From Lachnospiraceae bacterium (GTDB lineage: Bacteria > Bacillota > Clostridia > Lachnospirales > Lachnospiraceae), in assembly GCA_029054245.1 (NCBI GenBank), contig JAIDFQ010000042.1:248001-312000 (forward strand): 64,000 bases of DNA, read 5' to 3'. The translations under genes were made by a program, and so were the position numbers. Of this stretch, positions 10,361 through 53,431 are shown in pieces. Position 1 is the first letter of the stretch. Each line of letters starts with the position of its first letter. Below the pieces are notes generated by a model. The model saw only the letters and a list, made by a program, of their open reading frames with translations. It did no database searches and was not told the DNA's origin.

Positions 10361-10384
10361 ATTTATGAAAAAGTTGTTAATTAG

Positions 10385-11072: not shown

Positions 11073-11095
11073 ATAATTATTTTGGGATATATGTG

Positions 11096-11124: not shown

Positions 11125-11138
11125 ATGTTAAGAAGATG

Positions 11139-11165: not shown

Positions 11166-11211
11166 TAAAAATAAATTACCTGTTGCAGGATGGATAGGAA
11201 GGGGTGATGGG

Positions 11212-12243: not shown

Positions 12244-12255
12244 AGATGGAAAGGG

Positions 12256-12909
12256 ATGAAACGGATGAGCGATGAATTAAAGAAGGACGTTGAAGATAAT
12301 CTGGATACAGAGGAAGTATTGCAGGATATGGAAGACGTACAGGAGGATCAGGAGCTTTTGGAAACCGCGGAGCCTATAGCAGGAAGTGAAGAAGCACAAG
12401 ATGGCAAAGAGCCGGAGAGCAAGGCTGATAAGAAGGCGGCAAAGAAAAGACTAAAGAACGATAAGAAGCAGGATGCACTCAAGGAAAAGATAGAGGAGCT
12501 GGAAGATCGGGTAAAACGCCAGATGGCTGAATTCGACAATTTCAGAAAGCGTACCGAAAAAGAAAAAACAGCAATGTTTGAAACGGGAGCAAAAAGCGTC
12601 GTAGAAAAGATTCTACCGGTGGTGGATAATTTTGAAAGAGGTCTTGCGACAGTTCCGGCGGAAGAGAAAAATTCGCCTTTTGCAGAAGGAATGGAAATGA
12701 TTTACAAGCAGCTGATTTCAGAATTAGAAAAGATGGAAGTAAAGCCGATTCCAGCTGTGGGAGAGGAATTTAATCCCGAGTTTCATAATGCAGTCATGCA
12801 GGTGGAAAGCGACGAGTATGAGTCCGGGGTGATAGCCCAGGAGCTGCAGAAGGGATACACTTACAGGGACAGCGTGGTAAGGCACAGCATGGTGGCAGTG
12901 GTAAGTTAG
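12256..12909 (+). CDS. grpE: Nucleotide exchange factor GrpE
   Basis: GrpE releases ADP from DnaK. The 217-residue protein has an acidic, disordered N-terminus (residues ~1-60), a Lys-rich coiled coil ending in RQMAEFDNFRKRTEKEK, and the family beta-domain with NPEFHNAVM and GYTYRDSVVRHSMV at the C-terminus. An in-frame ATG at 12265 is an equally plausible start, since GGAAAGGG lies immediately before the first ATG. It follows hrcA by 12 bp and shares its CIRCE-controlled transcript. Confidence 0.95.
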   Translation: MKRMSDELKKDVEDNLDTEEVLQDMEDVQEDQELLETAEPIAGSEEAQDGKEPESKADKKAAKKRLKNDKKQDALKEKIEELEDRVKRQMAEFDNFRKRTEKEKTAMFETGAKSVVEKILPVVDNFERGLATVPAEEKNSPFAEGMEMIYKQLISELEKMEVKPIPAVGEEFNPEFHNAVMQVESDEYESGVIAQELQKGYTYRDSVVRHSMVAVVS

Positions 12910-13028
12910 CATATTGCGATTGAAAGCAGATGCTTACTTCAAAGTAGATCAGATGGTCCACTTGGCAGAACAATTAGGTAATAATAAACATTTAACAGTA
13001 TCATAAATAAAATCAGGAGGAGATCATT

Positions 13029-14900
13029 ATGAGTAAAATAATTGGTATTGACTTAGGTACAACAAACAGCTGCGTAGCAGTTATGGAAGGCGGAAAGCCT
13101 ACCGTTATCGCAAATGCAGAAGGCGCAAGAACGACACCGTCTGTAGTGGCGTTCACAAAGACAGGAGAAAGATTGATTGGTGAACCTGCAAAACGTCAGG
13201 CAGTAACCAACGCAGAAAAGACCATTTCATCTATTAAGAGAGATATGGGTACAGACAGGGGACGCAATATCGATGACAAGAAATATTCCCCTCAGCAGAT
13301 TTCAGCCATGATTCTTCAGAAGCTGAAAGCAGATGCTGAAAGTTATTTGGGTGAAAAGGTTACAGAGGCGGTCATCACAGTTCCCGCGTACTTTAATGAT
13401 GCACAGCGTCAGGCAACCAAGGATGCCGGTAAGATTGCAGGTCTTGACGTAAAGCGTATCATCAACGAGCCTACGGCAGCAGCCCTTGCTTATGGTCTTG
13501 ACAATGAAAAAGAGCAAAAAATCATGGTATATGACTTAGGCGGCGGTACTTTCGATGTCTCCATCATTGAAATCGGTGACGGTGTCATTGAAGTTCTGGC
13601 AACGAACGGCGACACACGTCTTGGCGGCGATGACTTTGATAACAGATTGACACAGTGGATGATCGATGAGTTTAAGAAAGCAGAGGGCGTTGACTTATCG
13701 AATGATAAGATGGCTTTGCAGAGATTGAAAGAAGCTGCTGAAAAAGCAAAGAAAGAACTTTCCTCTGCAACTACGACCAATATCAACCTTCCCTTCATCA
13801 CAGCTACAGCAGAAGGTCCGAAGCATTTTGATATGAACCTTTCCAGAGCAAAATTTGATGAATTGACACATGATTTAGTTGAAAAGACAGCAATCCCTGT
13901 ACAGAACGCAATGAAGGATGCAGGTCTTACTAATGCCGATTTAGGTCAGGTATTGCTGGTAGGCGGTTCCACACGTATTCCTGCTGTACAGGATAAGGTA
14001 AAACAGCTCACAGGTCATGAGCCCAGCAAGACGCTGAATCCGGATGAATGTGTTGCGCTAGGCGCTTCCATTCAGGGTGGTAAGCTGGCAGGCGATGCCG
14101 GTGCAGGGGAGATTCTTCTTTTGGACGTTACGCCTCTTTCTCTTTCTATTGAGACCATGGGCGGCATTGCAACCAGATTGATTGAGAGAAATACAACCAT
14201 TCCTACAAAGAAGAGCCAGATTTTCTCAACGGCGGCAGACAACCAGACGGCAGTTGATATTAACGTGCTACAGGGTGAAAGACAATTTGCAAGGGATAAT
14301 AAGTCCCTCGGACAGTTCCGGTTAGACGGAATCCCTCCGGCAATGCGCGGCGTGCCTCAGATTGAAGTTACATTTGATATTGATGCCAACGGTATCGTCA
14401 ATGTATCTGCAAAGGATCTTGGCACAGGCAAAGAACAGCACATCACGATTACAGCAAGCTCCAATATGTCTGATGATGAAATCGATAAGGCAGTGAAGGA
14501 AGCAGCTGAGTTTGAGGCACAGGATAAGAAGAGGAAAGAAGCGATTGACGCAAGAAATGAAGCGGATTCTTTCGTATTCCAGACAGAAAAAGCATTAAAC
14601 GAGGTTGGCGATAAGATTGATGCTTCTGAGAAATCAGCGGTAGAAGCAGATATGCAGGCAGTAAAGGATATTCTGGAGAGAACAAAAGATCAGGAAATGT
14701 CTGATTCCGATTTAGATGCACTCAAGGCGGCTAAGGAAAAACTTACCACAAGTGCACAGGCACTGTTCACCAAGATGTATGAGAATATGCAGCAGGCAGG
14801 TGGAGCAGGTCCCGATATGGGTGCCGGAGCAGGTCCTGACATGGGTGCAGATGCAGGTCCCGCAGATGATGTGGTTGATGGAGATTACAGAGAAGTATAA
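13029..14900 (+). CDS. dnaK: Molecular chaperone DnaK (Hsp70)
   Basis: This 623-residue Hsp70 holds client proteins in an ATP-controlled cycle with DnaJ and GrpE. Visible signatures include [18 protein letters not shown] (phosphate 1), [13 protein letters not shown] (phosphate 2), [14 protein letters not shown] (adenosine) and the linker segment [17 protein letters not shown]. The substrate domain and lid follow, and the tail is a short Gly/Ala/Met-rich repeat ([13 protein letters not shown]) ending [10 protein letters not shown]. The ribosome site AGGAGGAGATCATT is strong. It lies 119 bp after grpE; that gap holds no clear promoter, so it is probably read from the hrcA promoter. Confidence 0.98.
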
Positions 14901-14961
14901 AACGAGGTGGTCAGATTTCACAAAATGATCTGTAAAACAGGCAGATAGCTGATTATCTCAG

Positions 14962-15023
14962 GGAGAATGTAACAGCTTAGCTGTAACAGCCCAGCTGTAA
15001 CAGTTCAGCGAGTTACATTCTCC
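14962..15023. repeat. Tandem GTAACAG repeat inside a 12-bp hairpin, dnaK-dnaJ gap
   Basis: Arms GGAGAATGTAAC (14962-14973) and GTTACATTCTCC (15012-15023) pair perfectly. Between and overlapping them are three tandem 14-nt units at 14968-14981, 14982-14995 and 14996-15009, of the form TGTAACAG then three pyrimidines then AGC. The hairpin lacks a good T-tract, so attenuation or RNA processing between dnaK and dnaJ is more likely than full termination. The core matches other intergenic repeats in this window. Confidence 0.75.
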
Positions 15024-15030
15024 TTGTGCT

Positions 15031-15059
15031 TTGAACCATTTTATTGTATACTATATATA
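15031..15059 (+). promoter_or_regulatory. Sigma-A promoter for dnaJ
   Basis: TTGAAC at 15031-15036, a 17-nt spacer and TATATA at 15054-15059. A GCCGCC-TTT-GGCGGC palindrome follows in the leader. No CIRCE is present, so dnaJ may be partly uncoupled from HrcA. Confidence 0.6.
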
Positions 15060-15115
15060 ATTTCGTGCCGCCTTTGGCGGCATGCTGTGCGCTGAAAGCA
15101 TGGGAGGAATGAAGA

Positions 15116-16276
15116 ATGGCAGAACAGAAACGTGATTATTATGAGGTTCTAGGCATCGATAAAAACGCAGATGATGCCGCCATTAAAAAAGCATACAGGG
15201 CTCTTGCCAAGAAGTATCATCCAGATATGAATCCCGGGGATGCGGAAGCGGAGAAAAAGTTTAAGGAAGCCTCGGAGGCTTATGCTATTTTGAGCGATCC
15301 TGAGAAGAAAAGGCAGTACGATCAGTTTGGTCATGCAGCGTTTGAAGGGGGCGGCGGCGGATATGGCGGCTTCGATTTCAACAGTGCAGATTTCAGTGAT
15401 ATTTTTGGCGATATTTTTGGTGATTTCTTTGGTGGAGGACGTAAGGGCAGAGGAAGCAATGGTCCTATGAAGGGCGCCAATATCCGAACAAGCGTAAGAA
15501 TTACCTTTGAAGAGGCAGTGTTCGGCGTTGATAAAGAAATTGAACTGACGCTTAAGGATGAATGTAAGACCTGTCACGGTTCAGGCGCGAAACCTGGAAC
15601 CAGTCCTGAAACCTGTCAAAAGTGCGGTGGGAAAGGGCAGGTTGTATTTACGCAACAGTCTTTCTTTGGCACGGTCAGAAACGTGCAGACTTGTCCAGAA
15701 TGTAACGGTACTGGCAAAGTCATTAAGGAAAAGTGTGCGGACTGTCATGGTTCAGGATATATTGCAAGCCGTAAAAAGATACAGGTATCGATTCCTGCGG
15801 GCATTGATAATGGACAGAGTGTCAGAATCCGCGATAAAGGTGAGCCGGGCACCAATGGTGGTCCCAGAGGGGATTTGCTGGTTGAAGTAATTGTTGGGCG
15901 TCATCCGATTTTCCAACGTCAGGATTACAATATTTATTCTACGGTACCGGTTTCGTTTGCAGTGGCAGCGCTTGGCGGAGATGTGCTGGTAGATACTGTT
16001 GACGGAAAAGTACTTTACGAGGTAAAGCCAGGGACACAGACAGACACCAAGGTGCGCCTAAAGGGCAAAGGTGTTCCTACTTTGAGGAATAAAGAGGTCC
16101 GCGGTGACCATTATGTGACTCTGGTGGTACAGACACCTGATAAATTATCTCATGAAGCGAAAGAACTGCTGCGGCAGTTCGATGCCCTAACTGGAGACAG
16201 TTTAAATATTTCAAAGAATGTACAGGCAGAAAAAACAGATACCAAAGATTCAAAGAAAAAGAAATTTTGGAAATAA
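15116..16276 (+). CDS. dnaJ: Chaperone DnaJ (Hsp40)
   Basis: DnaJ delivers unfolded clients to DnaK and stimulates its ATPase. The 386-residue protein has a J-domain with HPD at residues 35-37, then a Gly/Phe-rich linker (~75-110), four CxxCxGxG zinc repeats between ~residues 145 and 210 ([32 protein letters not shown]), and the C-terminal substrate domains. It is a full type I DnaJ of normal length. It has its own promoter after the structured dnaK-dnaJ gap. The C-terminus is unusually Lys/Asp-rich ([12 protein letters not shown]). Confidence 0.97.
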
Positions 16277-40095: not shown

Positions 40096-40152
40096 TTGAC
40101 GAATAAGAGAAAAATATGTATGATTAGTGTATAGGAAAACTGTTTAGGAAAA
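40096..40152 (+). promoter_or_regulatory. Promoter and TAGGAAAA direct repeats before the ribokinase operon
   Basis: TTGACG at 40096-40101, 17-nt spacer, TATGAT at 40119-40124. Two identical TAGGAAAA repeats lie at 40132-40139 and 40145-40152, just past the start-site region, and could be a regulator site. No clear LacI-type palindrome was found. Confidence 0.6.
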
Positions 40153-40188: not shown

Positions 40189-41121
40189 GTGAAAAAAATA
40201 TTAGTGATCGGCAGCCTGAATATGGACATGGTAATTGAAATGAAGCGGATGCCAATCGTAGGTGAAACGGTTCTTGGAACACGGATGACCTATGTGCCGG
40301 GAGGCAAGGGAGCAAATCAGGCGTATGCGGCAGCAAGGCTTGGAGGAGATGTCAAAATGCTTGGATGTATAGGGGAAGATGATTTTGGGAAAACACAGAA
40401 GAGCAATCTGACGAAATGTGGTGTCGATACAGATGATTTCAAACAGACGCAGGCACAGGGAACCGGAATGGCAAGCATCTATGTAGATGAATGCGGAGAT
40501 AATACAGTGGTGGTCGTGCCAGGGGCTAATATGGAATGTAATGTAAGCTATCTGAAAAAAAACGATGAAGCTCTGAAGGAATGTGATTATGTAATTCTGC
40601 AGATGGAGATTGCCTGTGATGCCATTTATTATGCAATCGGCAGAGCAAGAGAATTAGGAAAAACGATCATATTGAATCCGGCGCCAGTGCCGGATACGCT
40701 TCCCGACGAAATTTTCTCCATGCTGGATTACATTACGCCGAATGAATCGGAATTGATGAAGCTGTGCGGGAAGGAAGGCGATTCATTGGAGGATTATGCA
40801 GAAGGGGCGAGACGGCTGCTTGAGAAGGGCGTTAAAAATGTCCTTGTCACCCTTGGGAAGAAGGGGGCGTTGTTTGTCAATCAGGACATGGAGGAGCTGT
40901 TCCCGGCAAGAAAGGTAGAAGCTGTGGACACAACAGCGGCGGGCGACTGTTTCAACGGAGCGTTTGCAGTAGCCCTTGCAGAGGGAAAAAAACTAGATGA
41001 GGCTGTCATGTTCGCCAATGCGGCATCGTCGATTGCTGTTACAAGGAACGGTGCACAGACATCCATACCTACAAGAGAAGAGACGGAGGAGGTTCTCGCA
41101 GAACTGTTTGCGTTCTCTTAA
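40189..41121 (+). CDS. rbsK: Ribokinase
   Basis: A 310-residue PfkB-family kinase that phosphorylates ribose to ribose-5-phosphate. The start is GTG at 40189. It has GSLNMDMVIEMKRMPIVGE, the N-terminal signature PGGKGANQAYAAARLGG, the lid strands, NPAPVPDTL, TPNESE and the catalytic/anion-hole motif VDTTAAGDCFNGAF with the base Asp. Length and motif spacing match RbsK. As first gene of an operon with a BMP-type importer and ADP-ribosylglycohydrolase-like enzymes, it likely handles ribose released from a ribosyl compound. Confidence 0.94.
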   Translation: MKKILVIGSLNMDMVIEMKRMPIVGETVLGTRMTYVPGGKGANQAYAAARLGGDVKMLGCIGEDDFGKTQKSNLTKCGVDTDDFKQTQAQGTGMASIYVDECGDNTVVVVPGANMECNVSYLKKNDEALKECDYVILQMEIACDAIYYAIGRARELGKTIILNPAPVPDTLPDEIFSMLDYITPNESELMKLCGKEGDSLEDYAEGARRLLEKGVKNVLVTLGKKGALFVNQDMEELFPARKVEAVDTTAAGDCFNGAFAVALAEGKKLDEAVMFANAASSIAVTRNGAQTSIPTREETEEVLAELFAFS

Positions 41122-41187
41122 GGCATCGCGGTGAAGGAAACAAGACGAAATCGGATCATGGATCTTTAAAAGAAAGAGAGGTATTTT

Positions 41188-42291
41188 ATGAAAAAGGTTA
41201 ATAAGATGATAGCAATTCTCATGGCAGCAGTATTGGTATTAGGGATAGCAGGCTGCGGAAGCAAGCAGGAAGAAAAGAAGGATGGACTCAAGGTGGTGCT
41301 GTTGATTACCAGTAACCTTGGTGACAAGGGGTTCTATGACAGTGCAAATGACGGTATGAAATTAATCGAAAAGGAACTGGGAGCGGAAGTAAAGACCATA
41401 GAAATGGGACAGGATCCTTCCAAATATGAACCGTATTTCAGAGATGTTGCAGAGCAGGATTGGGATTACATCATTGTAGGTTCCTCCCCGGCAGTGGAAA
41501 TTGCAGAAGCTTTGATTCCTGAATATCCTGATAAAAAGTTTATTATGTTTGACACGGAAGTAGATTGGAGCAAAGGCGATTTCAGCAATCTTTATTGTGT
41601 ACAGTATAAGCAGAATGAAGGAAGTTTCTTAGCAGGCGCAGTTGCAGCGGTCATGACCACAGAAGGAAAGAATGCTAATCCCGATAAGGTTATTGGATGT
41701 ATCGGCGGAGGAGACCTTCCTATTATCAATGACTTTATGATTGGCTATATCAGAGGCGCACAGTATGTTGAACCTGATATAAAGGTGGCAGTTGCTTATG
41801 CAGGTACATTTGTGGATTCCACAAAAGGTAAGGAACTGGCATTATCCCAGATGAGCCAGCAGAATGTAGATATCTGTTTCCAGATTGCTTCCCAGACAGG
41901 AATCGGCGTACTGGATGCAGCAAAGGAAAAAGGTCTGTATGCAATCGGTGTAGACGGAGACCAGGCAGCGGCATTTAAGGATTCCGACCCAGGAATGGCA
42001 GAAGTCATTGTGACATCAATGATGAAGAGAGTGGATCAGTCCCTGCTTCGAGCAATTAAGATGGCGGAAGACGGAAGCCTGCCGTGGGGAAAGACGGAAG
42101 TGATCGGTCTTAAGGAATTAGGTGTAGGCATTATCTACGGTGAAAATTTTGAAAGAGAATTATCAGAAGAAAAACAGAGCATGATAAAGGATATCGAGCA
42201 GCAGATCATTGACGGAAAGATTGAAGTTGAGTCGGCGCTTGGAATGGATACAGCAGAATTTGAAGTGATTCGAAATGAAGTTGCACCGTAA
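41188..42291 (+). CDS. BMP/PnrA-like ABC transporter substrate-binding lipoprotein
   Basis: A 367-residue lipoprotein with signal and lipobox LGIAGCGS. The mature part is the BMP (basic membrane protein) fold: VVLLITSNLGDKGFYDSAND, IIVGSSPAVEIAEAL, KFIMFDTEVDW, GCIGGGDLPIINDFMIGY and GVLDAAKEKGLYAIGVDGDQ. Characterised homologues (PnrA, BmpD, Bacillus YufN/NupN) bind purine or other nucleosides. It is the receptor for the ATPase and permeases downstream. A nucleoside or other ribosylated ligand is the best guess, supported by the flanking ribokinase; the exact ligand is unknown. Confidence 0.92.
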   Translation: MKKVNKMIAILMAAVLVLGIAGCGSKQEEKKDGLKVVLLITSNLGDKGFYDSANDGMKLIEKELGAEVKTIEMGQDPSKYEPYFRDVAEQDWDYIIVGSSPAVEIAEALIPEYPDKKFIMFDTEVDWSKGDFSNLYCVQYKQNEGSFLAGAVAAVMTTEGKNANPDKVIGCIGGGDLPIINDFMIGYIRGAQYVEPDIKVAVAYAGTFVDSTKGKELALSQMSQQNVDICFQIASQTGIGVLDAAKEKGLYAIGVDGDQAAAFKDSDPGMAEVIVTSMMKRVDQSLLRAIKMAEDGSLPWGKTEVIGLKELGVGIIYGENFERELSEEKQSMIKDIEQQIIDGKIEVESALGMDTAEFEVIRNEVAP

Positions 42292-42304
42292 TGTATAGCA
42301 GGTA

Positions 42305-42335
42305 TATGGGGCTGTCTGTTTTTGACAGCCCCATA
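42305..42335 (+). terminator. 12-bp hairpin between the receptor and ATPase genes
   Basis: TATGGGGCTGTC (42305-42316) and GACAGCCCCATA (42324-42335) pair perfectly around a TGTTTTT loop. There is no T-tract after it, so it is more likely a 3'-end stabiliser or partial terminator that lets the receptor be expressed above the ATPase and permeases. Confidence 0.6.
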
Positions 42336-42365
42336 TTAAACAGATGAAGTGATGAGGTGAACGGC

Positions 42366-43946
42366 ATGGAAAATGGAGGGAAAAGGCAAGGGGCGGAGAC
42401 CATTCTCAGTATGGAAAATATCACGAAGATATATTCAAATGGTTTTATCGCAAATAAAAATGTAAACTTTGAACTGCTAAGAGGCGAGATACATGCCCTG
42501 GCAGGAGAAAACGGAGCCGGAAAATCAACGCTGATGAAGGTTTTGTTTGGAGAAGAGCAGTGTGAAGAGGGCAGGATTCTTTTTAAGGGAAAAGAGGTTA
42601 AGATAGACAGTCCTTTGTCTGCAATCAAAATGGGAATTGGCATGGTCCATCAACATTTCATGCTGGTTCCAAGTATGACGGTTGCCGAAAATATGGTGCT
42701 TGGCTTGGAGCCGGAAAAGGCAGGATTTTTGGACAAGGAAGAGGCGATAAAAAGGACAAAGGAAGTTTCTTTAAAATATGGGTTGGAAATTGACCCTGAT
42801 GCACGCATAAGAGATTTGAGTGTGGGATTAAAGCAAAGGGTAGAAATCTTAAAAGCGCTGCTTCGAGGAGCGGATATACTGATACTGGATGAGCCCACGG
42901 CAGTGCTGACGCCCCAGGAAACGGTAGAGATTTTTGAAGAATTAAAACGCCTTAAGGAATTGGGGCATACGGTTGTATTTATTTCCCATAAGTTAGGGGA
43001 AATAAAGGAAATATGTGACCGGATCACGATAATGAGGGACGGAAGGACGATAGGCGTCAGGATGGTGGATGAGGTGTCCGAGCAGGAAATCTCCAGATTG
43101 ATGATCGGCAGGGATGTCCTTCTTAAAACGGATAAGGCCGAGGCGAAGCCGGGAAAGGCGTTTCTTTCCATCAGCAACTTAAACTACACAGATGCGGCAG
43201 GTCAGAAAATCTTAAATGACATCAATATGACGGTGAGAAAGGGTGAAATACTCGGCATTGCAGGCATAGAAGGAAACGGACAAAACGAGTTGAGCGAGTT
43301 GGTAACAGGAATGAAGAAAAACCGGGCAGGTCAGATTCTCATTGACGGAGAAGACATCAGCCGTAAGTCAGTGAGGGAAATCAGGGAACTTGGCGTATCT
43401 CACATTTCACAGGACAGAATGACTTATGGCGTCGTTGCCGATGCAGGAGTTGCAGATAACATTATGGCAGATCGATATTACCGAAAGGAATTTAAGAAGG
43501 GAGTCCTGTTAAACAGAAAAAAGATATGCAAGGAAACGGACCAGCTGATTTTGGAATATGGTGTGAAATGTGATGACAGGGAACAGCCGGTACGGATGCT
43601 TTCAGGCGGAAACATGCAGAAGGTGGTGGTGGCAAGAGAATTTTCCAGCGATCCGAAGCTTGTGATTGCGAATCAGCCCACGAGAGGAATCGATGTAGGA
43701 GCGGCAGAATTTGTTCACAAAAAGCTGCTAGAGCTTAGAGATAAGGATGCAGCGATTCTGTTGATATCAGCAGACCTGACGGAGATTATCAATTTAAGTG
43801 ACAGCATTGTGGTTCTGCATGACGGGGCGATTGTCGCTTATTTTGAGGATGCGAAAACGATAGATCCAGTAGAGCTTGGAGAGTATATGTTAGGAATCAA
43901 AAAAATGAGCCAGGAGCAGATAGGAGGTGCGGTGCATGAACAGTAA
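42366..43946 (+). CDS. Double-domain ABC ATPase of nucleoside/ribose-type importer
   Basis: About 526 residues from the ATG at 42366 (GAGGTGA upstream), with an alternative GTG at 42357. Two ABC domains are fused. The first has Walker A AGENGAGKSTLMK, signature LSVGLKQRVEI and Walker B ILILDEPTAVLT. The second has a degenerate Walker A (AGIEGNGQNEL), signature LSGGNMQKVVVAREF and a Walker B lacking the catalytic Glu (LVIANQPTRGID). That asymmetry is normal for the YufO/RbsA/MglA group. It powers the importer with the two permeases that follow and overlaps the first by 11 nt. Confidence 0.94.
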   Translation: MENGGKRQGAETILSMENITKIYSNGFIANKNVNFELLRGEIHALAGENGAGKSTLMKVLFGEEQCEEGRILFKGKEVKIDSPLSAIKMGIGMVHQHFMLVPSMTVAENMVLGLEPEKAGFLDKEEAIKRTKEVSLKYGLEIDPDARIRDLSVGLKQRVEILKALLRGADILILDEPTAVLTPQETVEIFEELKRLKELGHTVVFISHKLGEIKEICDRITIMRDGRTIGVRMVDEVSEQEISRLMIGRDVLLKTDKAEAKPGKAFLSISNLNYTDAAGQKILNDINMTVRKGEILGIAGIEGNGQNELSELVTGMKKNRAGQILIDGEDISRKSVREIRELGVSHISQDRMTYGVVADAGVADNIMADRYYRKEFKKGVLLNRKKICKETDQLILEYGVKCDDREQPVRMLSGGNMQKVVVAREFSSDPKLVIANQPTRGIDVGAAEFVHKKLLELRDKDAAILLISADLTEIINLSDSIVVLHDGAIVAYFEDAKTIDPVELGEYMLGIKKMSQEQIGGAVHEQ

Positions 43947-45012
43947 AACGATAGAGAAAAGATTTGATGTGATAAGAACCATATTGGCAGTTATCATCGC
44001 GCTTATGATTGCGCTGGTCGTGATTATTCTTGTCAGCGATGACCCGGTGAATGCGCTGTATCATTTTCTGATTGGTCCAATTACCAATGCCAGAAGATTT
44101 GCGAATGTGATTGAACTGTCGATTCCGCTTATGTTCTGTGGTCTGGCTGTCAGTATCATGTTTGCTGCCGATCAGAGTAACATGGCATCGGAAGGAGCGT
44201 TTTATGTATCCTGTGCAGTGACATCGGTGATTGCGGTTTTGTGGGAACTGCCGACTTTTCTTCATGTAATCGTGTGCCTGGCAGCAGGGACGATCACAGG
44301 AATCATCATTATGTGTATTCCGGCAGTACTTAAGGCAAAATGGCAGGCAAATGAACTGGTGTCCTCTCTGATGCTCAATTATATCTGCCTGTATATGGGA
44401 AATTATATTATTAGAACCCGTGTACTGGACACTTCTTTAGGAATCACCACCTCCCTGGGATTTAGAGAGACTGCATCTTTGCCGAATTTGATTCCCGGCA
44501 CCCGGCTGCACTTAGGACTTATCTTTGTGATTTTGGCAGTGATTCTCTGCTATATTATGATGTATCATACAGGACTTGGGTACGCAATTAGAACCATAGG
44601 TCAGAATAAAAATTTTGCAAAGTATGCCGGCATGGGTGTAGGCGGCGTAGTGCTGCTGACACAGGTCATAGGAGGTGCGCTGGCAGGTTTTGGCGGAGCG
44701 ACAGAGATGATTGGGATGTACAACAGATTCCAGTATCAGGGGCTTCCCCAGTATGGATTTGACGGTATGTTGATTGCAATTATGGCAAAATACAATCCTG
44801 CGCTTGTACCGGTTGCTGCGATTTTCCTTGCTTATATACGTACAGGGGCGGATATCATGAACAGGACAAGCGATGTGCCATATGAAATCATTTCCGTTAT
44901 CCAGTCGGCAATCATCATGCTTGTTGTTGCAAAGATGTTCCTGAATAACCTGAAACATAAACAGATCGTAAAATATTCTAAAATGCAGATGGAGAAGAAG
45001 GAGGCGTCATAG
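43936..45012 (+). CDS. BMP-type ABC importer permease 1
   Basis: About 358 residues from the ATG at 43936 (AGGAGG 8 nt upstream), with an alternative GTG at 43927. It is a BPD_transp_2 permease (YufP/NupP-like) with ~8-10 membrane segments; landmarks are LMFCGLAVSIMFAADQSNMASEGAF, the ligand-path segment AKWQANELVSSLMLNYI and the loop GYAIRTIGQNKNFAKYAGM that touches the ATPase. It ends 1 bp before the second permease start. Confidence 0.93.
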   Translation: MNSKTIEKRFDVIRTILAVIIALMIALVVIILVSDDPVNALYHFLIGPITNARRFANVIELSIPLMFCGLAVSIMFAADQSNMASEGAFYVSCAVTSVIAVLWELPTFLHVIVCLAAGTITGIIIMCIPAVLKAKWQANELVSSLMLNYICLYMGNYIIRTRVLDTSLGITTSLGFRETASLPNLIPGTRLHLGLIFVILAVILCYIMMYHTGLGYAIRTIGQNKNFAKYAGMGVGGVVLLTQVIGGALAGFGGATEMIGMYNRFQYQGLPQYGFDGMLIAIMAKYNPALVPVAAIFLAYIRTGADIMNRTSDVPYEIISVIQSAIIMLVVAKMFLNNLKHKQIVKYSKMQMEKKEAS

Positions 45013-45013
45013 G

Positions 45014-45958
45014 ATGAAACAGATTATCAGTATCATTTTTTCTACTCAGTTTTTTTATTCGATTCTCCGAATCTCCACGCCGATCATGTTTGCATCTATG
45101 GGAGCCCTTATTACATCCAGGGCAGGGGTGATCAATATCGGCTTAGAGGGAATTATGTTGTTCGCGGCATTGTCCGGGGTCATCTTCAGCGCCGCCTCAG
45201 GCAGCGCCTGGGTAGGATTTTTGGGTGCAGTGGTGACGGGCGTGCTGATTGCGATTTTGATGTCGTATGTTGCGCTGGTCTTAAAGTCACATATTACCCT
45301 TACCGGTATCGCAATTAATATGTTTGCCTCAGGATGCACTGTATTTATCCTGTATCTTGTGACAGGCGATAAGGGAATTTCGTCCTCGCTGGCAAGCAAG
45401 GTCATGCCGGTGGTTGAACTTCCGCTTATTAATAAGATACCAATCTTGGGTGAAATTATTTCAGGACATAACATTTTGACTTATTTATCTTTTTTGGGTG
45501 TCTTATTTACCTATGTTCTTTTGAATAAGACAGTTGTGGGACTTAGGATAAGGGCAGTGGGAGAAAATGAACAGGCGGCGCTTTCAGTGGGCGCTAAGCC
45601 GGTAAAGTATCAGTTTATTGCAATGCTGATCAGCGGTGTCTTAGCTGGGATGGGAGGCGCTTATATGTCCATGGGATATGTTTCCTGGTTCTCCCGGGAT
45701 ATGGTGGCAGGGCGTGGATTCATTGCACTGGCAGCACAGCAGCTGGGACAGGGCACCACGCTGGGAACAATGAGCGCAACCCTTGTGTTTGGAATGGCGG
45801 ATGCGCTGGCGAACAACCTTCAGGCATTACAGATGCCGTCAGAGTTTGTGCAGTCCATTCCTTATGTGACAACGATTATCGGATTGGTAGTCTTTTCTAT
45901 CGCAAAGCAGAGAAAAGAATTAAAACGGATTAGAGAAAATAACAGTAAAACAGCGTAG
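45014..45958 (+). CDS. BMP-type ABC importer permease 2
   Basis: A 314-residue BPD_transp_2 permease (YufQ/NupQ-like) with ~8 membrane segments. Landmarks are ITSRAGVINIGLEGIMLF, the helix with GSAWVGFLGAVVTGV, LRIRAVGENEQAALSVGAK (ATPase contact) and GRGFIALAAQQLG. It completes the importer with the preceding gene. The short gap (17 bp) to the next enzyme gene shows a single operon. Confidence 0.93.
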   Translation: MKQIISIIFSTQFFYSILRISTPIMFASMGALITSRAGVINIGLEGIMLFAALSGVIFSAASGSAWVGFLGAVVTGVLIAILMSYVALVLKSHITLTGIAINMFASGCTVFILYLVTGDKGISSSLASKVMPVVELPLINKIPILGEIISGHNILTYLSFLGVLFTYVLLNKTVVGLRIRAVGENEQAALSVGAKPVKYQFIAMLISGVLAGMGGAYMSMGYVSWFSRDMVAGRGFIALAAQQLGQGTTLGTMSATLVFGMADALANNLQALQMPSEFVQSIPYVTTIIGLVVFSIAKQRKELKRIRENNSKTA

Positions 45959-45975
45959 AAGAAAGGAAGGCAGTT

Positions 45976-47385
45976 ATGGGTAAGAGAGCATGGGAATATG
46001 GAAGAGAGATCGTTGAGAATGAAAGACCGTTTCCGGAAAGAGCAGGACGTGTGCTGTGGGATGATGTGATCAGAGACGGAAGACGGGATCTTGATAACAT
46101 GAAATATCTCTGGGGCGGAAATGTCACGGAGTCTTTGATGCCATTGTTTTTCATCGCGGTGTATGTACAGGAATATGGAAATCTGGGATATGACGTGCGG
46201 GAAGCGGAGGCAATGATTGAAGAGGGGCGTGAGCTTGCCAGGACGAAGAATGATATTGCTTTATACAGACATACATGCAGACTGCTCAAGACTTTATATG
46301 ATTCCCCGAAAAAGGAAGATCATAATCATTGGAAATACACGGAATACAACAGCTTTGAACAGTATGCCGCTTCGGTAAAATTCCCGGAATATGCGCCATA
46401 TGCGCCGAACAGGGAGGAACTGTTTGACAAGATTTATGCAGGGTGGATCGCTCAGGTATGTGCAGGCGCAATCGGAACAGCCATTGAAGGGTATCATACG
46501 AAGGCGCTTGAAGAAGTCTATGGCACAGTGGATCGTTATATCAAGGATCCTGAAATGTATAATGATGATCTGACATTTGAACTGGCTTTTCTGGAGACGT
46601 TTATAAGAAAAGGATATGATCTGACAGCAGCGGATGTGGCAGAGGATTGGGCAGCCAGGCTTCCTTTTGCATTTACTGCGGAGGGTATTGCACTTAAGAA
46701 CATCAAAAACGGGATTTATCCGCCCGAAAGCGGTAAGTTCAGAAATCCGTTCAGGGAATTGATCGGCGCACAGATGAGGGGAGGAATCTGCGGCATGGCA
46801 GCGCCAGGCGATCCGTACATGGCGGCGAAGCTGGCATATGAGGATGCCATTGTATCTCACCACAACAACGGAGTGCTGGGAGAAATCTTCAATGCGGTGA
46901 TGGTCTCTCTTGCTTTTATCAAAAGCGATATGCGCGAAATCTGCCGGGAAGCGATTGACCTGATGCCAAAAGACAGCGAATATTATTCTGTAGTGGAATA
47001 TGCTTGGGAAGCCTGTGAGAAATATGGCAATTGGAGAGATGCATGGCTTGACTGTGATGAGAAATATAAAGAATACTGCTGGATTCATGCTTATCCTAAT
47101 GCCTGTGCGGAAGTAGTAGCTTTATACTATTGTGAAAATGACTATGATAAGCTTGTGAACCTTATTGCCATGTGCGGTCTTGATTCCGATTGCAATGCAG
47201 CTCAGGTAGCGAATATCCTTGCAGTGGCACAGGGAAAAGAATGTATTGACGAAAAGTGGACCTATCCTATAGGCGACTATATGGAAACCTATGTAAGAGG
47301 AATGGAGATTGTGAAATTTAGGGTTCTGGCAGAAAAAACGGTGGACGCTGTCTTAAAAGCCGGAAAGGAGAAAGGCTGCGGATGA
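45976..47385 (+). CDS. ADP-ribosylglycohydrolase-family protein, first copy
   Basis: A 469-residue cytoplasmic protein. Residues ~150-460 match the ADP-ribosylglycohydrolase (DraG/ARH) fold: AGWIAQVCAGAIGTAIEG, the metal motif YNDDLTFELAFLE near residue 195, GGICGMAAPGDPYMAAKLAY and the late motif GLDSDCNAAQVANILA holding DxD. The usual GDALG near the start of the fold is replaced by AGAIGTAIEG, so one Mg ligand differs. An N-terminal ~140-residue extension (opening with RAWEYGREIVENE) is unusual for DraG. It most likely hydrolyses an N- or O-ribosyl bond, with the substrate imported by the adjacent transporter. It overlaps the second copy by 4 nt. Substrate unproven. Confidence 0.85.
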   Translation: MGKRAWEYGREIVENERPFPERAGRVLWDDVIRDGRRDLDNMKYLWGGNVTESLMPLFFIAVYVQEYGNLGYDVREAEAMIEEGRELARTKNDIALYRHTCRLLKTLYDSPKKEDHNHWKYTEYNSFEQYAASVKFPEYAPYAPNREELFDKIYAGWIAQVCAGAIGTAIEGYHTKALEEVYGTVDRYIKDPEMYNDDLTFELAFLETFIRKGYDLTAADVAEDWAARLPFAFTAEGIALKNIKNGIYPPESGKFRNPFRELIGAQMRGGICGMAAPGDPYMAAKLAYEDAIVSHHNNGVLGEIFNAVMVSLAFIKSDMREICREAIDLMPKDSEYYSVVEYAWEACEKYGNWRDAWLDCDEKYKEYCWIHAYPNACAEVVALYYCENDYDKLVNLIAMCGLDSDCNAAQVANILAVAQGKECIDEKWTYPIGDYMETYVRGMEIVKFRVLAEKTVDAVLKAGKEKGCG

Positions 47386-48773
47386 AAGCATGGGAATATA
47401 CGCATGAAATGACGAAGAGGGCAGTCCCTATATTGCAGACAGAAGAAGAAAAGGAATGGACGCAGCAGAAGGTTAGTCTGGGCGATATCGATATAGAAGA
47501 GACGCGGATTCGCTGGAAGACGCAGGTGCCAGGAAGCAGGGCGCCTGACTATGTCATGATCGGTGCGGTGCAGGCGGCGGAGAATATGGGGTATGATGTA
47601 AGGGAAGCTGAAGAAATGCTTCCCCTAATGGAGAAGGCTTATGAGCAAGAGGATCATGTGGCGTTTTTAAAGCTTACCGCACAGCTGTTTAATGTGCTTG
47701 CCAATGCGCCAAAGGCGGAGAATCATCCATACTGGAGCTATCGTTATTATACATCATTTGAAGATCACCAGGAGGAGGTAGCGTTTCTGGCCTATGAACT
47801 TCCTTCTTATACCGAAGAAGAATTGTTTGAGAAAATCCATGCGGGATGGCAGGCACAGATCGCTGGGGCGGCATTAGGGACGATCATTGAAGGGTACAGC
47901 AACGCCCAGCTTAAGAAAACTTTTGGCGAAATACGGGATTATTTGAGGACGCCCAGCACCTACAATGACGATGTTTTGTTTGAACTGGCGTTTCTGGAAG
48001 CGTGTCTGAAAAAAGGCAGGCATGTCACGTCGGCAGATATCGGTCTGGAATGGGTGGGAAGAATTGAATATACATGGACGGCAGAGGAAGTTGCCTTTAA
48101 AAATCTCAAAAGAGGGATCTTTCCGCCTTTGTCCGCCACATTGAATAATCCCTGGCGGGAATGGATTGGCGCGCAGATGCGTGGATCCATCTGCGGGATG
48201 GTGGCGCCTGGAAACCCTGTGCTGGCAGCACAGCTGGCATGGACGGATGGGACGGTTTCCCATGTAAATAATGGTGTGCTGGGAGAAGTGTTCAATGCGA
48301 TTTTGGTATCTCTAGCCTATGTGGAAAATGATGTAAGAGAGATTCTGGAAAAGACCATTAAAATGATGCCGCAAAAAAGCGAATATTATTCGGTCGTCAA
48401 ATTTGCCTGGGATGCCTGTGAGCAATCCGGCAATTGGGAGGATGCGTGGGAGGCGTGCGAGGAAAAATATAAACGGTATAATTGGATTCATACCTACCCC
48501 AATGCGGCGGCGGAGGTGGTGTCACTTTACTTTGGGGGAAATGATTTTGATGAGTGTATGTATATCTGTGCCATGTGCGGGCAGGACGTGGACTGTAATG
48601 CAGGCCAGATAGGGACGGTTTACGGCATCATGCAGGGATACAAGGGCATTGACGCAAGATGGACGGCCCCCTTTGGAGACAGATTTGACAGTCTGATGCG
48701 GGGATATGAGAGTACCACGATCTCTCATCTTGCCAAGCAGGTGTTAAAAGCCATCGAAAGGATAAAAAAGTAG
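47382..48773 (+). CDS. ADP-ribosylglycohydrolase-family protein, second copy
   Basis: A 463-residue paralogue of the preceding gene, starting inside its stop codon. It shares the N-terminal AWEYTHEM opening, the region YNDDVLFELAFLEACLKKG, GSICGMVAPGNPVLAAQLAW, VSHVNNGVLGEVFNA and the DxD motif in CGQDVDCNAGQIGTV. Visible divergence across the pair, and translation in tandem, suggest either a heterodimer or two enzymes with different ribosyl substrates. The same early replacement of GDALG (AGAALGTIIEG) is present. Downstream is a YitT/YczE-type membrane protein. Confidence 0.85.
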   Translation: MKAWEYTHEMTKRAVPILQTEEEKEWTQQKVSLGDIDIEETRIRWKTQVPGSRAPDYVMIGAVQAAENMGYDVREAEEMLPLMEKAYEQEDHVAFLKLTAQLFNVLANAPKAENHPYWSYRYYTSFEDHQEEVAFLAYELPSYTEEELFEKIHAGWQAQIAGAALGTIIEGYSNAQLKKTFGEIRDYLRTPSTYNDDVLFELAFLEACLKKGRHVTSADIGLEWVGRIEYTWTAEEVAFKNLKRGIFPPLSATLNNPWREWIGAQMRGSICGMVAPGNPVLAAQLAWTDGTVSHVNNGVLGEVFNAILVSLAYVENDVREILEKTIKMMPQKSEYYSVVKFAWDACEQSGNWEDAWEACEEKYKRYNWIHTYPNAAAEVVSLYFGGNDFDECMYICAMCGQDVDCNAGQIGTVYGIMQGYKGIDARWTAPFGDRFDSLMRGYESTTISHLAKQVLKAIERIKK

Positions 48774-48783
48774 GAGGAAAGGC

Positions 48784-49416
48784 GTGAAATTTGATACAAA
48801 AGGCTTAATAAGAAAATTGATTGTTGCCATGGCAGGGCTTATTATCTGCGGCATGGGAGTCGGAATTTTCCTGTACAGCGGTCTGGGGGTGGATCCAGCA
48901 AGCGTATTTGAACTTGGGATAGGAAATGTCTTTCACATAAGCTATGGAACTTCCTCGGCGGCAATCAATGTGGTCATTTTGGCAATTGTATTTTTTCTGG
49001 ACAAGTCTTATATTAACATTGCATCCATTCTGGCTATTTTCGGAATTGGATACACTGCAGATTTCGTCAATTTTGTTTTGGGGATTTTCTTAAAAGGAGA
49101 ACAGCATATCATTGTTAGGCTTATTCTAATCATAATCGGTCTTTTGATTATGAGTACCGGAATCGCAACCTACATAAGGGCAGACTTGGGGGTAGGCGCT
49201 ATCGATCTGGTATCGGAGATCATCAGCAACAAATTAAAGATCTCTTACAGGGGGGTGCGGGTCTCGGCGGATGTAGCATTTGTGGTGATTGGTTTTCTTT
49301 TGGGAGGATCTGTAGGAATCGGAACCGTGTTGGCAGCATTCATGACAGGACCGTCCATACAGTTTTTACGTCCGCATATTTACAAGGTGACGGACAGGAT
49401 TTTAAAAAAAGAGTAA
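48784..49416 (+). CDS. YitT/YczE family membrane protein
   Basis: A 210-residue protein with five hydrophobic segments, starting at GTG 48784 after AGGAGGAAAGGC. The repeated pattern of glycine-rich helices (LGVDPASVFELGIGNVF in the first half, ADLGVGAIDLVSEIISN in the second) matches the YczE/YyaS/YitT group, whose function is unknown although transport has been suggested. Here it follows two ribosyl hydrolase-like genes by 10 bp, so it belongs to the operon and might export or import a product. Confidence 0.8.
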   Translation: MKFDTKGLIRKLIVAMAGLIICGMGVGIFLYSGLGVDPASVFELGIGNVFHISYGTSSAAINVVILAIVFFLDKSYINIASILAIFGIGYTADFVNFVLGIFLKGEQHIIVRLILIIIGLLIMSTGIATYIRADLGVGAIDLVSEIISNKLKISYRGVRVSADVAFVVIGFLLGGSVGIGTVLAAFMTGPSIQFLRPHIYKVTDRILKKE

Positions 49417-49484
49417 CGCCGTATGTTACACGGTTTTGTGTAGAAAAAAATGGATAATCATTGTATAATAAGGAGGTAGAAAAT

Positions 49485-49534
49485 GTGATTATATTCCCCT
49501 TCGGATTCAAATGTACATAAATGTTCGGAGGGGA
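49485..49534 (+). promoter_or_regulatory. Possible leader peptide and attenuator before the LacI-kinase gene
   Basis: AAGGAGG (49470-49476) precedes GTG at 49485, which opens an 11-residue frame (VIIFPFGFKCT) to TAA at 49518-49520. The coding part overlaps the left arm of a hairpin (49495-49505 with 49524-49534, two wobble pairs) followed by ATTTGTTCATTTT. TATAAT at 49464-49469 directly abuts the SD, so the true promoter is unclear. Tentative. Confidence 0.3.
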
Positions 49535-49653
49535 TTTGTTCATTTTGTATAAAATATCTCATCTTGCGCATCGGGGTCTGTTTCTTGGTAAAGCATACGT
49601 TTATAGAAGGGCTTTATAGGAAAAGTTCGTGCGGGAAAGGCATGGGCAGATAG

Positions 49654-51555
49654 ATGAATATAAAAGATATCGCGAAGCTTTGCGGAGTGTCTCCGTCAAC
49701 AGTGTCAAAAATTCTCCACAATAAGGATTCTAATATCAGCGTGGAGACAAGAAAGAAAGTACTTGAGGTTATCAAGGAATATCAATATGTACCCTATTCT
49801 AAAGTAATCAACAGCGCCGCTCCGAAAACGAATATGATCGGCGTGCTGGTCGATGGGGATACGTATGGGACGCAGGAGTTTCTTTATGCCATAGAAGCTG
49901 CGGCGGCAAGGGAAGGTTACAGCATTATCCTGTGCAACACAGAAGGAGAAAGGGACAAGCTTAAGAAGTATTGCCGTGTTCTTGAAAACAAAGGAGTTGA
50001 CGGTATTATTTTTGTGTGCCAGGATGCAGAACTTCCGGAAAACGGAGAGATTCCCAAGGTGCAGATTTTTGACAAAAAGAAGGAACAGGGTAGGAATGAC
50101 ACGGCAGATATTTATTTTGAAATGCAGGAAGCTGGGTATGCGGCAGCCAATTATCTTTTGGAAAAAGGGCATAGAAAGATCGCATGTCTTTTGAGGGAAG
50201 ATGATATAGGCATTAAAGCAGGTTGCCTGCTTGCTTACAAAGAACGTTTTATTTCCCCTGAAAAGGAATGGATTTTCCTGGGTACGGACGAGGATATCAT
50301 GAATATTGGTATTGCCCGGTGCCTTGGAGAAGATGTCACAGCTGTAATTTGCGCTGATCTGGAGATTGGAAATATCCTTTATGAGAAGCTGCGTGAAAGA
50401 GGGGACACGATCCCCAATAAGATATCCGTCATTAGTGCAAGAGACCACAAGATGGCGGAGAGAATATGCCCTCCTATGACGGCAGTACATATTCCAGCGG
50501 ATGAGATAGGGGAGGCGGCGGTGGATGCCCTGATTGAGATTATTGAGGGGAGAAGGCCAGCCTATGAATGCAGGAGACGTTTTGAACTTAAAATAAAAGA
50601 GAGGGGAAGCGTGAAAAAACCCGCAAACCACGATCAGGGGAAAAAAATCGTGGTAGTTGGAAGTATGAACATGGACTGTATCATCAACGTTTCCCACATC
50701 CCCACGGGAGGGGAAACAGTCAGAAGCGGTAACATCGTGTCCCTTCCGGGCGGAAAAGGGGCAAACCAGGCGGTAGGTGCAGGCAGGCTGGAGGGGCTTG
50801 TTTATATGATTGGACGGCTGGGCAATGACAGCGACGGAAAAGAAATCTACAACAGTCTGGTAAGCAGCGGCGTCCATACCGATGGGGTCGTATTTGATGA
50901 AAACATCCCTACCGGAAAGGCATATATAAATGTTCCTCCCGATGGAGAAAGCACGATCGTTATCTACGGCGGTGCAAACGAAAAACTGGACAGAAGCCAG
51001 GTGCGCCAATATGCGCAGCTTCTGGACGATGCGGCTTATTGCCTTCTCACCTTGGAAATTGCAGAGGAAACAGTGGAATATACCATCCAGAAATGCAAAA
51101 AGAAAAACGTGGAAGTCATTTTAAAACCCTCATCTGTAGAAAAGATGAAAGAAAGCCTGTTTGAAAATATCGATTACTTTATACCTAACGAAAAGGAAGT
51201 AAAGCAGCTGATTCCGGGAGATACCACAATAGAAGAGAAGGCAGACATTTTGCTTTCAAAAGGGGTAAAAAATGTAATTATTACGTTGGGACATAAGGGA
51301 TGTTATCTAAAAAATGCCGAGTATGAACGATATTTCCCGGCAGCAGATTTTTATCCCTTAGATACGACGGGAGCCGCCGATGCCTTTATCAGTGCGCTGG
51401 CGGTAGCTTTAAGCGAAGGACATGAAATTTTGTATGCGGTTGGATTTGCTACTTATGCGGCCGGCGTGAGCATTACAAGACAAGGGGTTCAGCCTGCCAT
51501 GGTTGACAGGAAGGGGCTTGCGCTATATCAGGAGGAAATCAATGGTTTTGCTTAA
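49654..51555 (+). CDS. LacI-type regulator fused to a PfkB/ribokinase domain
   Basis: A 633-residue two-part protein. Residues 1-~55 are a LacI helix-turn-helix (NIKDIAKLCGVSPSTVSKIL) followed by a hinge, then a periplasmic-binding-like sensor to ~320 (MIGVLVDGDTYGTQEF, GVDGIIFVCQ, VHIPADEIGEAAVDALIE). Residues ~330-633 form a ribokinase-like PfkB domain with VVVGSMNMDCIINVSHIP, PGGKGANQAVGAGRL, NEKE and DTTGAADAFISALA. The anion-hole Gly of GAGD is Ala (GAAD), so catalysis may be weak; the domain may sense sugar or sugar phosphate instead. It is probably the regulator of the ribosyl cluster, with a 237-bp leader. Confidence 0.9.
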   Translation: MNIKDIAKLCGVSPSTVSKILHNKDSNISVETRKKVLEVIKEYQYVPYSKVINSAAPKTNMIGVLVDGDTYGTQEFLYAIEAAAAREGYSIILCNTEGERDKLKKYCRVLENKGVDGIIFVCQDAELPENGEIPKVQIFDKKKEQGRNDTADIYFEMQEAGYAAANYLLEKGHRKIACLLREDDIGIKAGCLLAYKERFISPEKEWIFLGTDEDIMNIGIARCLGEDVTAVICADLEIGNILYEKLRERGDTIPNKISVISARDHKMAERICPPMTAVHIPADEIGEAAVDALIEIIEGRRPAYECRRRFELKIKERGSVKKPANHDQGKKIVVVGSMNMDCIINVSHIPTGGETVRSGNIVSLPGGKGANQAVGAGRLEGLVYMIGRLGNDSDGKEIYNSLVSSGVHTDGVVFDENIPTGKAYINVPPDGESTIVIYGGANEKLDRSQVRQYAQLLDDAAYCLLTLEIAEETVEYTIQKCKKKNVEVILKPSSVEKMKESLFENIDYFIPNEKEVKQLIPGDTTIEEKADILLSKGVKNVIITLGHKGCYLKNAEYERYFPAADFYPLDTTGAADAFISALAVALSEGHEILYAVGFATYAAGVSITRQGVQPAMVDRKGLALYQEEINGFA

Positions 51556-51922: not shown

Positions 51923-53377
51923 TTACTTTCTGCTCATCTGGTCGAGTAAATCGATTTTGATATCGTAAAGCGCTTGGGAGAGATCAACGTATACTTTATG
52001 AGGGTTTGCGAAACGTCGGGTTTCGTCCCAGAGGGTATTTTGTTCGTTCTGGCAGTAGGTTCTGATGTCCATGACCTTGGGGGAATCGTAGCAGCAGGTT
52101 CCGTTTTGGAAGATGGGAACCATGATTTCGCGTAAGGTATAGGTGCCGGCTTCCAGTTTCGTTTTTTTCCAAGGTTCTGAGGGGTCGAATAAAAGTAAAG
52201 GCGCGTTTTCGTTGAACTTCTCGCCTACCAGACAGATCAGGTCGGCTTTGATCTTGCCGGTTTCTTTTTCGTAAATGCGGTAAATGGTCTTATTGCCGGG
52301 GTTGGTGATTTTTTCTGAGTTTTCGGACAACTTGATTTTAGGGACGAAATTGCCATTGGCATCCATGATGGCGGCAAGTTTGTACACGCCGCCGAAGGCG
52401 GGATTGTCTTTGGCGGTGATCAGGTTGGTGCCTACGCCCCAGGAGGTGATTGCGGCTCCTTGGGCTTTCAGGGTTTCAATCAGATATTCGTCCAGATCGT
52501 TGGAGGCGGAGATGATGGCATCTGTAAAACCTGCGTCATCAAGCATCCGACGGGCTTTTTTGGACAGGTAGGCAAGGTCGCCGCTGTCTAAGCGGATGCC
52601 GTAGTAGGTAAGCGGGATGCCCGCGGCGCGCATTTCTGAGAATACGCGGATTGCGTTGGGAACACCGGATTTTAGGGTGTCATAAGTATCCACCAGGAGA
52701 ATGCAGGCAGAAGGGTAAAGGTCTGCATAGGTTTTGAATGCGGTGTATTCGTCGGGGAAGCTCATGATCCAACTGTGTGCGTGGGTGCCCTTGACGGGGA
52801 TGTCGAAAAGCTGACCGCAGAGCACGTTAGAGGTGCCGATGCATCCGCCGATGACGGCAGCTCTTGCACCGTAGATGCCGGCATCGGGACCCTGGGCGCG
52901 GCGCAGACCAAATTCCATGATGCCGTCGCCTTTTGCCGCATAGCAGACTCTGGCAGCCTTGGTGGCAATCAGACTCTGGTGGTTGATAATATTTAAGATT
53001 GCGGTTTCCACAAGTTGAGCCTCCATAATGGGGGCGATCACCTTGACCAGGGGTTCTCTGGGAAAGACCACGGTTCCTTCGGGAATCGCATAGATGTCAC
53101 CGGAAAAGTGAAAGTCTGCCAGATAGTCAAGGAAGTCACGGTCAAAGATATGGAGACTTGCCAGATAGTCGATATCCTGAGAAGAGAAATGAAGTTCCTT
53201 TATATACTGGATCAGCTGTTCCAATCCGGCAGAAATTGCATAGCCTCCCCCACAGGGATTATTCCGGTAGAAGGCGTCGAAGATAACGGTTTCGTTCCGG
53301 TCCTTATGCTTGAAGTAGCCCTGCATCATGGTGAGCTCATAAAGGTCTGTAAGCAGTGTTAGATTTTGTCTGTCCAT
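51923..53377 (-). CDS. pncB: Nicotinate phosphoribosyltransferase
   Basis: About 484 residues from the ATG at 53377 (GGAGGATTATT upstream); the frame open to 53407 is unlikely. It makes nicotinate mononucleotide from nicotinate and PRPP, the entry step of NAD salvage. Signatures are LTDLYELTMMQGYFKH, FDAFYRNNPCGGGYAI, the active-site region with the phospho-His in VKGTHAHSWIMSF, EFGLRRAQGPDAGIYGARA and RLDSGDLAYLSKKARR. Motif order and length fit the bacterial PncB group. It lies next to the ribosyl cluster but on the other strand across the foldback, so co-regulation is not shown. Confidence 0.95.
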   Translation of the reverse strand: MDRQNLTLLTDLYELTMMQGYFKHKDRNETVIFDAFYRNNPCGGGYAISAGLEQLIQYIKELHFSSQDIDYLASLHIFDRDFLDYLADFHFSGDIYAIPEGTVVFPREPLVKVIAPIMEAQLVETAILNIINHQSLIATKAARVCYAAKGDGIMEFGLRRAQGPDAGIYGARAAVIGGCIGTSNVLCGQLFDIPVKGTHAHSWIMSFPDEYTAFKTYADLYPSACILLVDTYDTLKSGVPNAIRVFSEMRAAGIPLTYYGIRLDSGDLAYLSKKARRMLDDAGFTDAIISASNDLDEYLIETLKAQGAAITSWGVGTNLITAKDNPAFGGVYKLAAIMDANGNFVPKIKLSENSEKITNPGNKTIYRIYEKETGKIKADLICLVGEKFNENAPLLLFDPSEPWKKTKLEAGTYTLREIMVPIFQNGTCCYDSPKVMDIRTYCQNEQNTLWDETRRFANPHKVYVDLSQALYDIKIDLLDQMSRK

Positions 53378-53431
53378 AATAATCCTCCATGTTGCCAACA
53401 CCTGCAAATTTGGGCGTCAGCACAAATTTGT

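Follow-up and report, generated by a model that had tools for sequence, protein, structure and literature searches.

In Escherichia coli, the yegTUV operon unites a nucleoside H+ symporter (PF03825), a PF03747 protein, and a PfkB kinase in overlapping order, with the regulator gene yegW beside it, a logic like that of the locus described here. In the passages that deal with them, its three genes are called functionally unknown and are linked by the authors to ADP-glucose and glycogen (PMC10819704). Salvage through nucleoside hydrolases (IUNH) and ribokinase also resembles our locus in its sequence of import, hydrolysis to base plus ribose, and ribokinase action under LacI control; the relevant part of one account has the nucleoside hydrolase leaving ribose for ribokinase, with ADP-ribosyl compounds going unmentioned there (PMC8910321). 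A third point of comparison is given by the PnrA/Tp0319-type nucleoside ABC importers (TmpC, S. pneumoniae PnrA, and Borrelia BmpA/BmpD). The Bacteroides rus loci for ribose scavenging reportedly hold ribokinases with a nucleoside hydrolase and, in some versions, ADP-ribosylglycohydrolases, but unlike our locus are said to use a SusC/D-type outer-membrane system. A review of the ADP-ribosylglycohydrolase (ARH) family names ADP-ribosylated proteins as the substrates of those members that have been characterised, takes their context to hint at a broader range, and describes a binuclear metal site (PMC9503650). The sequence-only reading knew of no described pathway with exactly the gene set reported below. 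Our literature search likewise found, among the matches listed, no paper describing this set and none reporting ARH proteins as nucleosidases; yet the logic of yegTUV and the general import, hydrolysis, and ribokinase pathway are familiar and, with yegTUV as a known if unsolved analogue, the theme is not wholly new.

In this study, we examined the window, a stretch of 64,000 nucleotides from a Lachnospiraceae genome, and suggest, with a probability of roughly 0.58, that it carries a nucleoside (N-riboside) salvage operon in which import, ARH-type hydrolysis to base plus ribose, and ribokinase would operate under LacI-type control. Nine reading frames had been proposed from the letters, and all were recovered on the + strand at the positions and with the families given, each above its Pfam cut-off: PfkB, Bmp, ABC_tran (two stretches), BPD_transp_2 twice, ADP_ribosyl_GH twice, DUF6198/YitT, and LacI, Peripla_BP_3, and PfkB in a single protein. 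Upstream lies a promoter-like site, TTGACG-N17-TATGAT, followed by a conserved block, TAGGAAAACTGTTTAGGAAA (40132-40151; whole element 40096..40151, + strand), kept ahead of rbsK in three other loci (L044, L045, and L048) and a candidate LacI-type operator. The ribokinase gene rbsK (40189..41121; PF00294) passes the ribokinase model TIGR02152 with 371.5 bits against a cut-off of 299.65, and precedes the gene for a BMP/PnrA-type substrate-binding lipoprotein (41188..42291; PF02608, 205 bits). The 65-base spacer that follows contains a strong hairpin (42305..42335, + strand; arms TATGGGGCTGTC and GACAGCCCCATA), which may lower downstream expression and so set the ratio of receptor to transporter. 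From the double ABC ATPase (42357..43946; PF00005, two stretches) to the YczE-like gene the frames are tightly packed: permease A (PermA, 43927..45012) overlaps the ATPase gene by 20 bases, permease B (PermB, 45014..45958; both PF02653) and ARHa (45976..47385, 469 aa) follow after 1 and 17 bases, ARHb (47382..48773, 463 aa) overlaps ARHa by 4 bases, and 10 bases separate it from the YczE/DUF6198 membrane protein (48784..49416; PF19700, 32.9 bits, cut-off 27). After a spacer of 237 bases comes a LacI-type repressor fused in one frame to a PfkB (ribokinase-like) kinase (49654..51555; PF00356, PF13377, and PF00294).

This module is a real, conserved operon. Compared with L044, each of the nine genes shows a dN/dS of 0.019-0.057, so that all, the fusion and the YczE-like gene included, are maintained by purifying selection. 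Against TIGR02152, the fused kinase reaches 277.6 bits, just below the cut-off of 299.65; as a regulator, the protein might detect its own ligand or use it up. Similar fusions occur near the modules of L044, L046, L048, L115, and L040-L042. The YczE-like protein reaches 98 bits with the NCBIfam YczE model, below its cut-off of 205; that it exports a base is possible, but a guess. A broken copy of the module was also seen (L043, on contig G009:C35, about 7271-15120), with ribokinase, ATPase, permease A, and ARH genes in pieces, permease B short, and BMP, YczE, and LacI-PfkB of full length; a further contig of this genome carries a second long-ARH operon, which includes IUNH (L040).

The importer set is complete, with a PF02608 receptor, a double ATPase, and two permeases, and shares this composition, the receptor family, and the pocket residues with the PnrA/Tp0319-type systems, from which it differs in being coupled to an ARH pair. 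It also sets the window apart from yegTUV, in which an MFS symporter takes the place of the ABC system and the neighbouring regulator is of GntR rather than LacI type. The best solved relative of the receptor is TmpC/PnrA (2fqw; E 7.3e-34), and mapping by motif through the TmpC alignment shows that the nucleoside-pocket residues F49, D122, F231, D256, and K280 are kept. Among 72 BMPs of the named loci (best 80 of 258 stretches), D122, D256, and K280 are invariant (72/72), and phenylalanine predominates both at position 49 (68 F, 4 Y) and at position 231 (48 F, 22 Y, 2 with another residue). An aromatic sandwich with an Asp/Asp/Lys ribose-binding set is described for BmpA and its kin in the pertinent section of PMC13325309. 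Because both elements are present here and kept across the BMPs, the pocket argues for a nucleoside as the likely ligand, rather than ribose alone or ADP-ribose.

The two hydrolase-like proteins do belong to the ADP-ribosylglycohydrolase family, as first read, with 134.7 (ARHa) and 139 bits (ARHb) against a PF03747 gathering cut-off of 26.2; their extent, however, required correction, since the ARH domain covers only about residues 143-466 of ARHa, and residues 1-140 form an additional conserved part outside it. The predicted structure of ARHa has the all-helical ARH fold of the ARH3/DraG type; the first prediction used 10 sequences. ARHb is 45% identical to ARHa and falls in a separate clade. 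Together with their relatives they define a long ARH subfamily, marked by an N-terminal helical extension of about 140 residues, absent from ARH3, DraG, and MJ1187, and by the motifs E-G-Y, N-D-D, and D-x-D-C. E171, N196-D197-D198, H295, D403, D405, and C406 are identical in 90 of 90 long ARHs, a set (as for the tree) without L035-L038, which are the places of L044, L048, L045, and L077, and without the broken copy L043; 50 of the 90 N-terminal parts entered alignment A2. All 90 thus carry N-D-D and D-x-D-C in place of the canonical T-D-D and D-x-D-T, and all lack the motif-1 Asp, whereas the aligned MJ1187, DraG, and ARH3 have T-D-D and a DxDT-type motif, positions that we take to be metal ligands. 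With two usual ligand positions altered (T to N and T to C), catalysis by ARHa and ARHb is not assured, and for the same substitutions "ADP-ribosyl hydrolase" is probably the wrong name for their activity. YegU, in contrast, is a single ARH with canonical GD, T-D-D, and D-T-D-T letters; at 23.5 bits against ARHa it works alike without being of the same family. It does resemble (131 bits) a YegU-like short ARH in a Tissierellales nucleoside operon (L106, 9989-20911), where this protein occurs with a long ARH, the importer, a PfkB kinase, two IUNHs, and a DUF6198/YczE-like protein, a gene content by which yegUV of E. coli is connected with nucleoside salvage.

The gene order was searched for in other genomes, and the neighbourhood proved conserved, so that the first of the two outcomes named as refuting the sequence-only reading, a lack of conservation, did not arise. 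A scan of named contigs, mostly from Bacillota, yielded 78 loci from the best 80 of 258 confirmed stretches; 55 are flanked by 7 kb or more on either side of the long ARH, the other 23 being too short-flanked for the count. Near the long ARH, within 9 kb for BMP, these 55 loci (best 80 of 258 stretches) hold BMP in 50, the entire importer in 49, IUNH in 33, DeoD in 24, ribokinase in 28, and an amidohydrolase in 16. At two of the 50, L047 and L073, BMP lies on the other strand than the ARH; with cut contigs included, BMP is present in 70 of the 78 loci (best 80 of 258 stretches). Labels derive from sequence clusters, for which we checked representatives: of two IUNHs, one is above the RihA cut-off and the other nearest RihC, below the RihC cut-off; one DeoD is above its cut-off; one amidohydrolase is nearest to N-ethylammeline-chlorohydrolase and then deoxyadenosine/MTA/SAH-deaminase models, all below cut-off. 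Recurrent orders include DeoD-ARH-BMP-ABC-PermA-PermB-IUNH-RbsK (Sedimentibacter), BMP-ABC-PermA-PermB-IUNH-IUNH-amidohydrolase-ARH-LacI-RbsK (Clostridium mobile and Anaerovirgula), LacI-RbsK-BMP-ABC-PermA-PermB-IUNH-IUNH-ARH (Paenibacillus and Cohnella), and, free of IUNH and DeoD, BMP-ABC-PermA-PermB-ARH-RbsK. In Hungatella (L046), two modules adjoin, importer-ARH-ARH and RbsK-IUNH-IUNH-importer, so that the ARH pair occupies a nucleoside-hydrolase slot. Five of the 55 well-flanked loci (best 80 of 258 stretches) are devoid of BMP: L061, where six IUNH-cluster genes stand beside the ARH, L071, L075, L083, and L084. L071 and L075 are from Clostridiaceae genomes.

Taken with two sets of controls, these counts show a strong link between ARH and importer within the near subfamily, which weakens beyond it. 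Among 144 relatives, counted by eye and leaving out two fragments of the broken copy G009:C35, all 13 places of a near-full-length long ARH lie within 6 kb of a BMP match, as compared with at least 4 of 110 other PF03747 matches within 10 kb of a listed BMP. Across the phylum, 31 of 299 sampled genomes, own genome included, gave profile matches at E 1e-40. Setting the own genome aside, we compared the neighbourhoods of the 12 top-scoring places, all above 290 bits and two only partial, with those of eight weaker ARHs from another subfamily; contig ends lay too near the ARH for a judgement at three of the 12 (L127, L128, and L133), leaving nine informative places. Importer genes occur at five of these nine, BMP at four (one, L122, appears to be the L091 contig already in the named set) and PermB at a contig end in the fifth; four divergent places have none. 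For two of the eight control ARHs, the stretch examined also contains parts of a BMP-type importer; an ATPase of 167 bits was seen at one, and a weakly IUNH-like protein at one. Downstream of the ARH in L123 there are DeoC, a ribose-type binding protein with ATPase, and ribokinase, a gene content that speaks for the salvage reading. Among the importer-less places, L132 is flanked on the opposite strand by solute-binding proteins of other kinds, and the remaining three (L129, 8952-13510; L130, 8937-13511; L131, 5620-10346) form a divergent long-ARH clade, placed directly ahead of a histidine-ammonia-lyase-type gene (aromatic amino acid lyase) and urocanase. In this clade A replaces E171 and position 168 is D; upstream, L130 has LacI, ribokinase, and a CUT1-type importer. 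Perhaps these ARHs cleave an imidazole riboside.

How the ARHs relate to the other nucleoside-cleaving enzymes is seen best in the 50 well-flanked BMP loci (best 80 of 258 stretches). IUNH or DeoD accompanies the ARH in 39 of them, so the ARH is not simply a replacement, and the coexistence points to a riboside poorly cut by either enzyme; neither is found in 11, the window included. Nine of these 11 loci hold a window-like ribokinase, as do 19 of 32 with IUNH, but none of 7 with DeoD and without IUNH, where ribose-1-phosphate would be expected (same best 80 of 258 stretches); free ribose thus appears to arise even where IUNH is missing. The contrast is softer than it looks, as the numbers are small, the loci related, and a PfkB-family kinase more remote from that of the window (below 120 bits) does occur at 5 of the 7 loci with DeoD only; over all 78 loci (best 80 of 258 stretches), the window-like ribokinase occurs in 13 of 23 without IUNH and DeoD and in 1 of 12 with DeoD only. 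The proposed hydrolase of the window has another fold than IUNH, and PF01156 (IUNH) had no match among the nine module proteins at E 0.001. In the window genome there is a single IUNH-family match, of 64 bits; against the weight of this stand the score of the match above the Pfam cut-off, five PNP-superfamily matches in the genome, and a strong IUNH elsewhere in the genomes of the relatives G004 and G034. The placement of ARHs in nucleoside-hydrolase positions, the Hungatella modules, the ribokinase pattern, and the single IUNH-family match together favour N-ribosyl hydrolysis to free ribose.

The core of the sequence-only reading, that is, import, cleavage, ribose phosphorylation, and regulation, is therefore backed by the nucleoside enzymes of the neighbourhoods and by the receptor pocket, but its further suggestion of ADP-ribose or an ADP-ribosyl-protein as substrate is not, since the receptor belongs with the nucleoside binders and MJ1187, DraG, and ARH3 have other letters at the metal site than these ARHs. 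In the proposed pathway, the BMP/PnrA-type receptor and ABC importer would bring a nucleoside into the cell, and the paralogous ARHa and ARHb, with an ARH fold and a remodelled metal site, would hydrolyse its N-ribosyl bond to base and free ribose. RbsK would then convert ribose into ribose-5-phosphate for the pentose phosphate pathway, and the base set free may leave the cell through the YczE-like protein. LacI-PfkB would keep the operon repressed as long as a ribosyl ligand is lacking, its kinase half possibly reporting flux.

Other readings of the ARHs deserve weighing. They might act only on unusual ribosides, such as alpha-nucleosides (alpha-ribazole, or alpha-adenosine from cobamides) or modified ones, leaving beta-nucleosides to IUNH and DeoD. 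Known ARHs act on alpha-ribosyl bonds, ARH3 has been solved with alpha-NAD+ (PDB 7arw), and mere duplicate activity would not explain the 39 of 50 BMP loci (best 80 of 258 stretches) shared with IUNH or DeoD; given the 11 where both are missing, the window among them, we regard so strict a division of labour as unlikely. DeoD directly precedes the ARH in many loci, and known ARHs take alpha C1 esters, so that hydrolysis of DeoD-derived alpha ribose-1-phosphate to free ribose for ribokinase could also be imagined. This seems very improbable: the window and many other loci have an ARH without adjoining DeoD, and the window-like ribokinase is absent from the seven DeoD-only loci (best 80 of 258 stretches), even if five of them have the distant PfkB kinase.

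A nicotinate phosphoribosyltransferase gene at 51923-53407, convergent with the operon and seen also in L044, L048, and L043, raises the thought of nicotinamide riboside salvage, with the ARH yielding nicotinamide and ribose and the adjacent enzyme using the base after deamidation; in L071 (9296-9982) and L075 (9310-9981), moreover, an isochorismatase-family protein directly precedes the long ARH. Yet the phosphoribosyltransferase is a neighbour only in close relatives (among the 87 loci L035-L121; best 80 of 258 stretches) and on the opposite strand, and the nicotinamidase model (cut-off 174) gives the L071 protein 32.9 bits and the L075 protein none, which makes this substrate very unlikely. 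Family membership in PF03747 and the predicted ARH3/DraG fold would suit a role like that of DraG, which frees nitrogenase reductase of ADP-ribose; the ARHs would then de-ADP-ribosylate a protein and only regulate nucleoside uptake. That role is more improbable still, for the metal-site and motif-1 letters depart from those of DraG, MJ1187, and ARH3 in 90/90, two ARH copies sit within a catabolic-looking operon, and an ADP-ribosyltransferase is not among the neighbour families identified here.

Overall, nucleoside salvage of the PnrA type with a candidate new nucleosidase subfamily is a plausible theme for this operon. Tentatively, and at less than even odds, we extend it to the long ARH subfamily as a whole, which might be a new and widespread class of Firmicutes nucleosidase, with a fold unrelated to IUNH, in which the ARHa/ARHb pair cuts ribosides, perhaps alpha or modified, beyond the reach of IUNH and DeoD. 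If true, many proteins now labelled ADP-ribosylglycohydrolase would move to nucleoside breakdown, and the family name alone would be no ground for reading in ADP-ribosylation biology. Many Firmicutes would then have a second chemical route to ribose, and the unsolved yegTUV operon of E. coli would gain a testable function.
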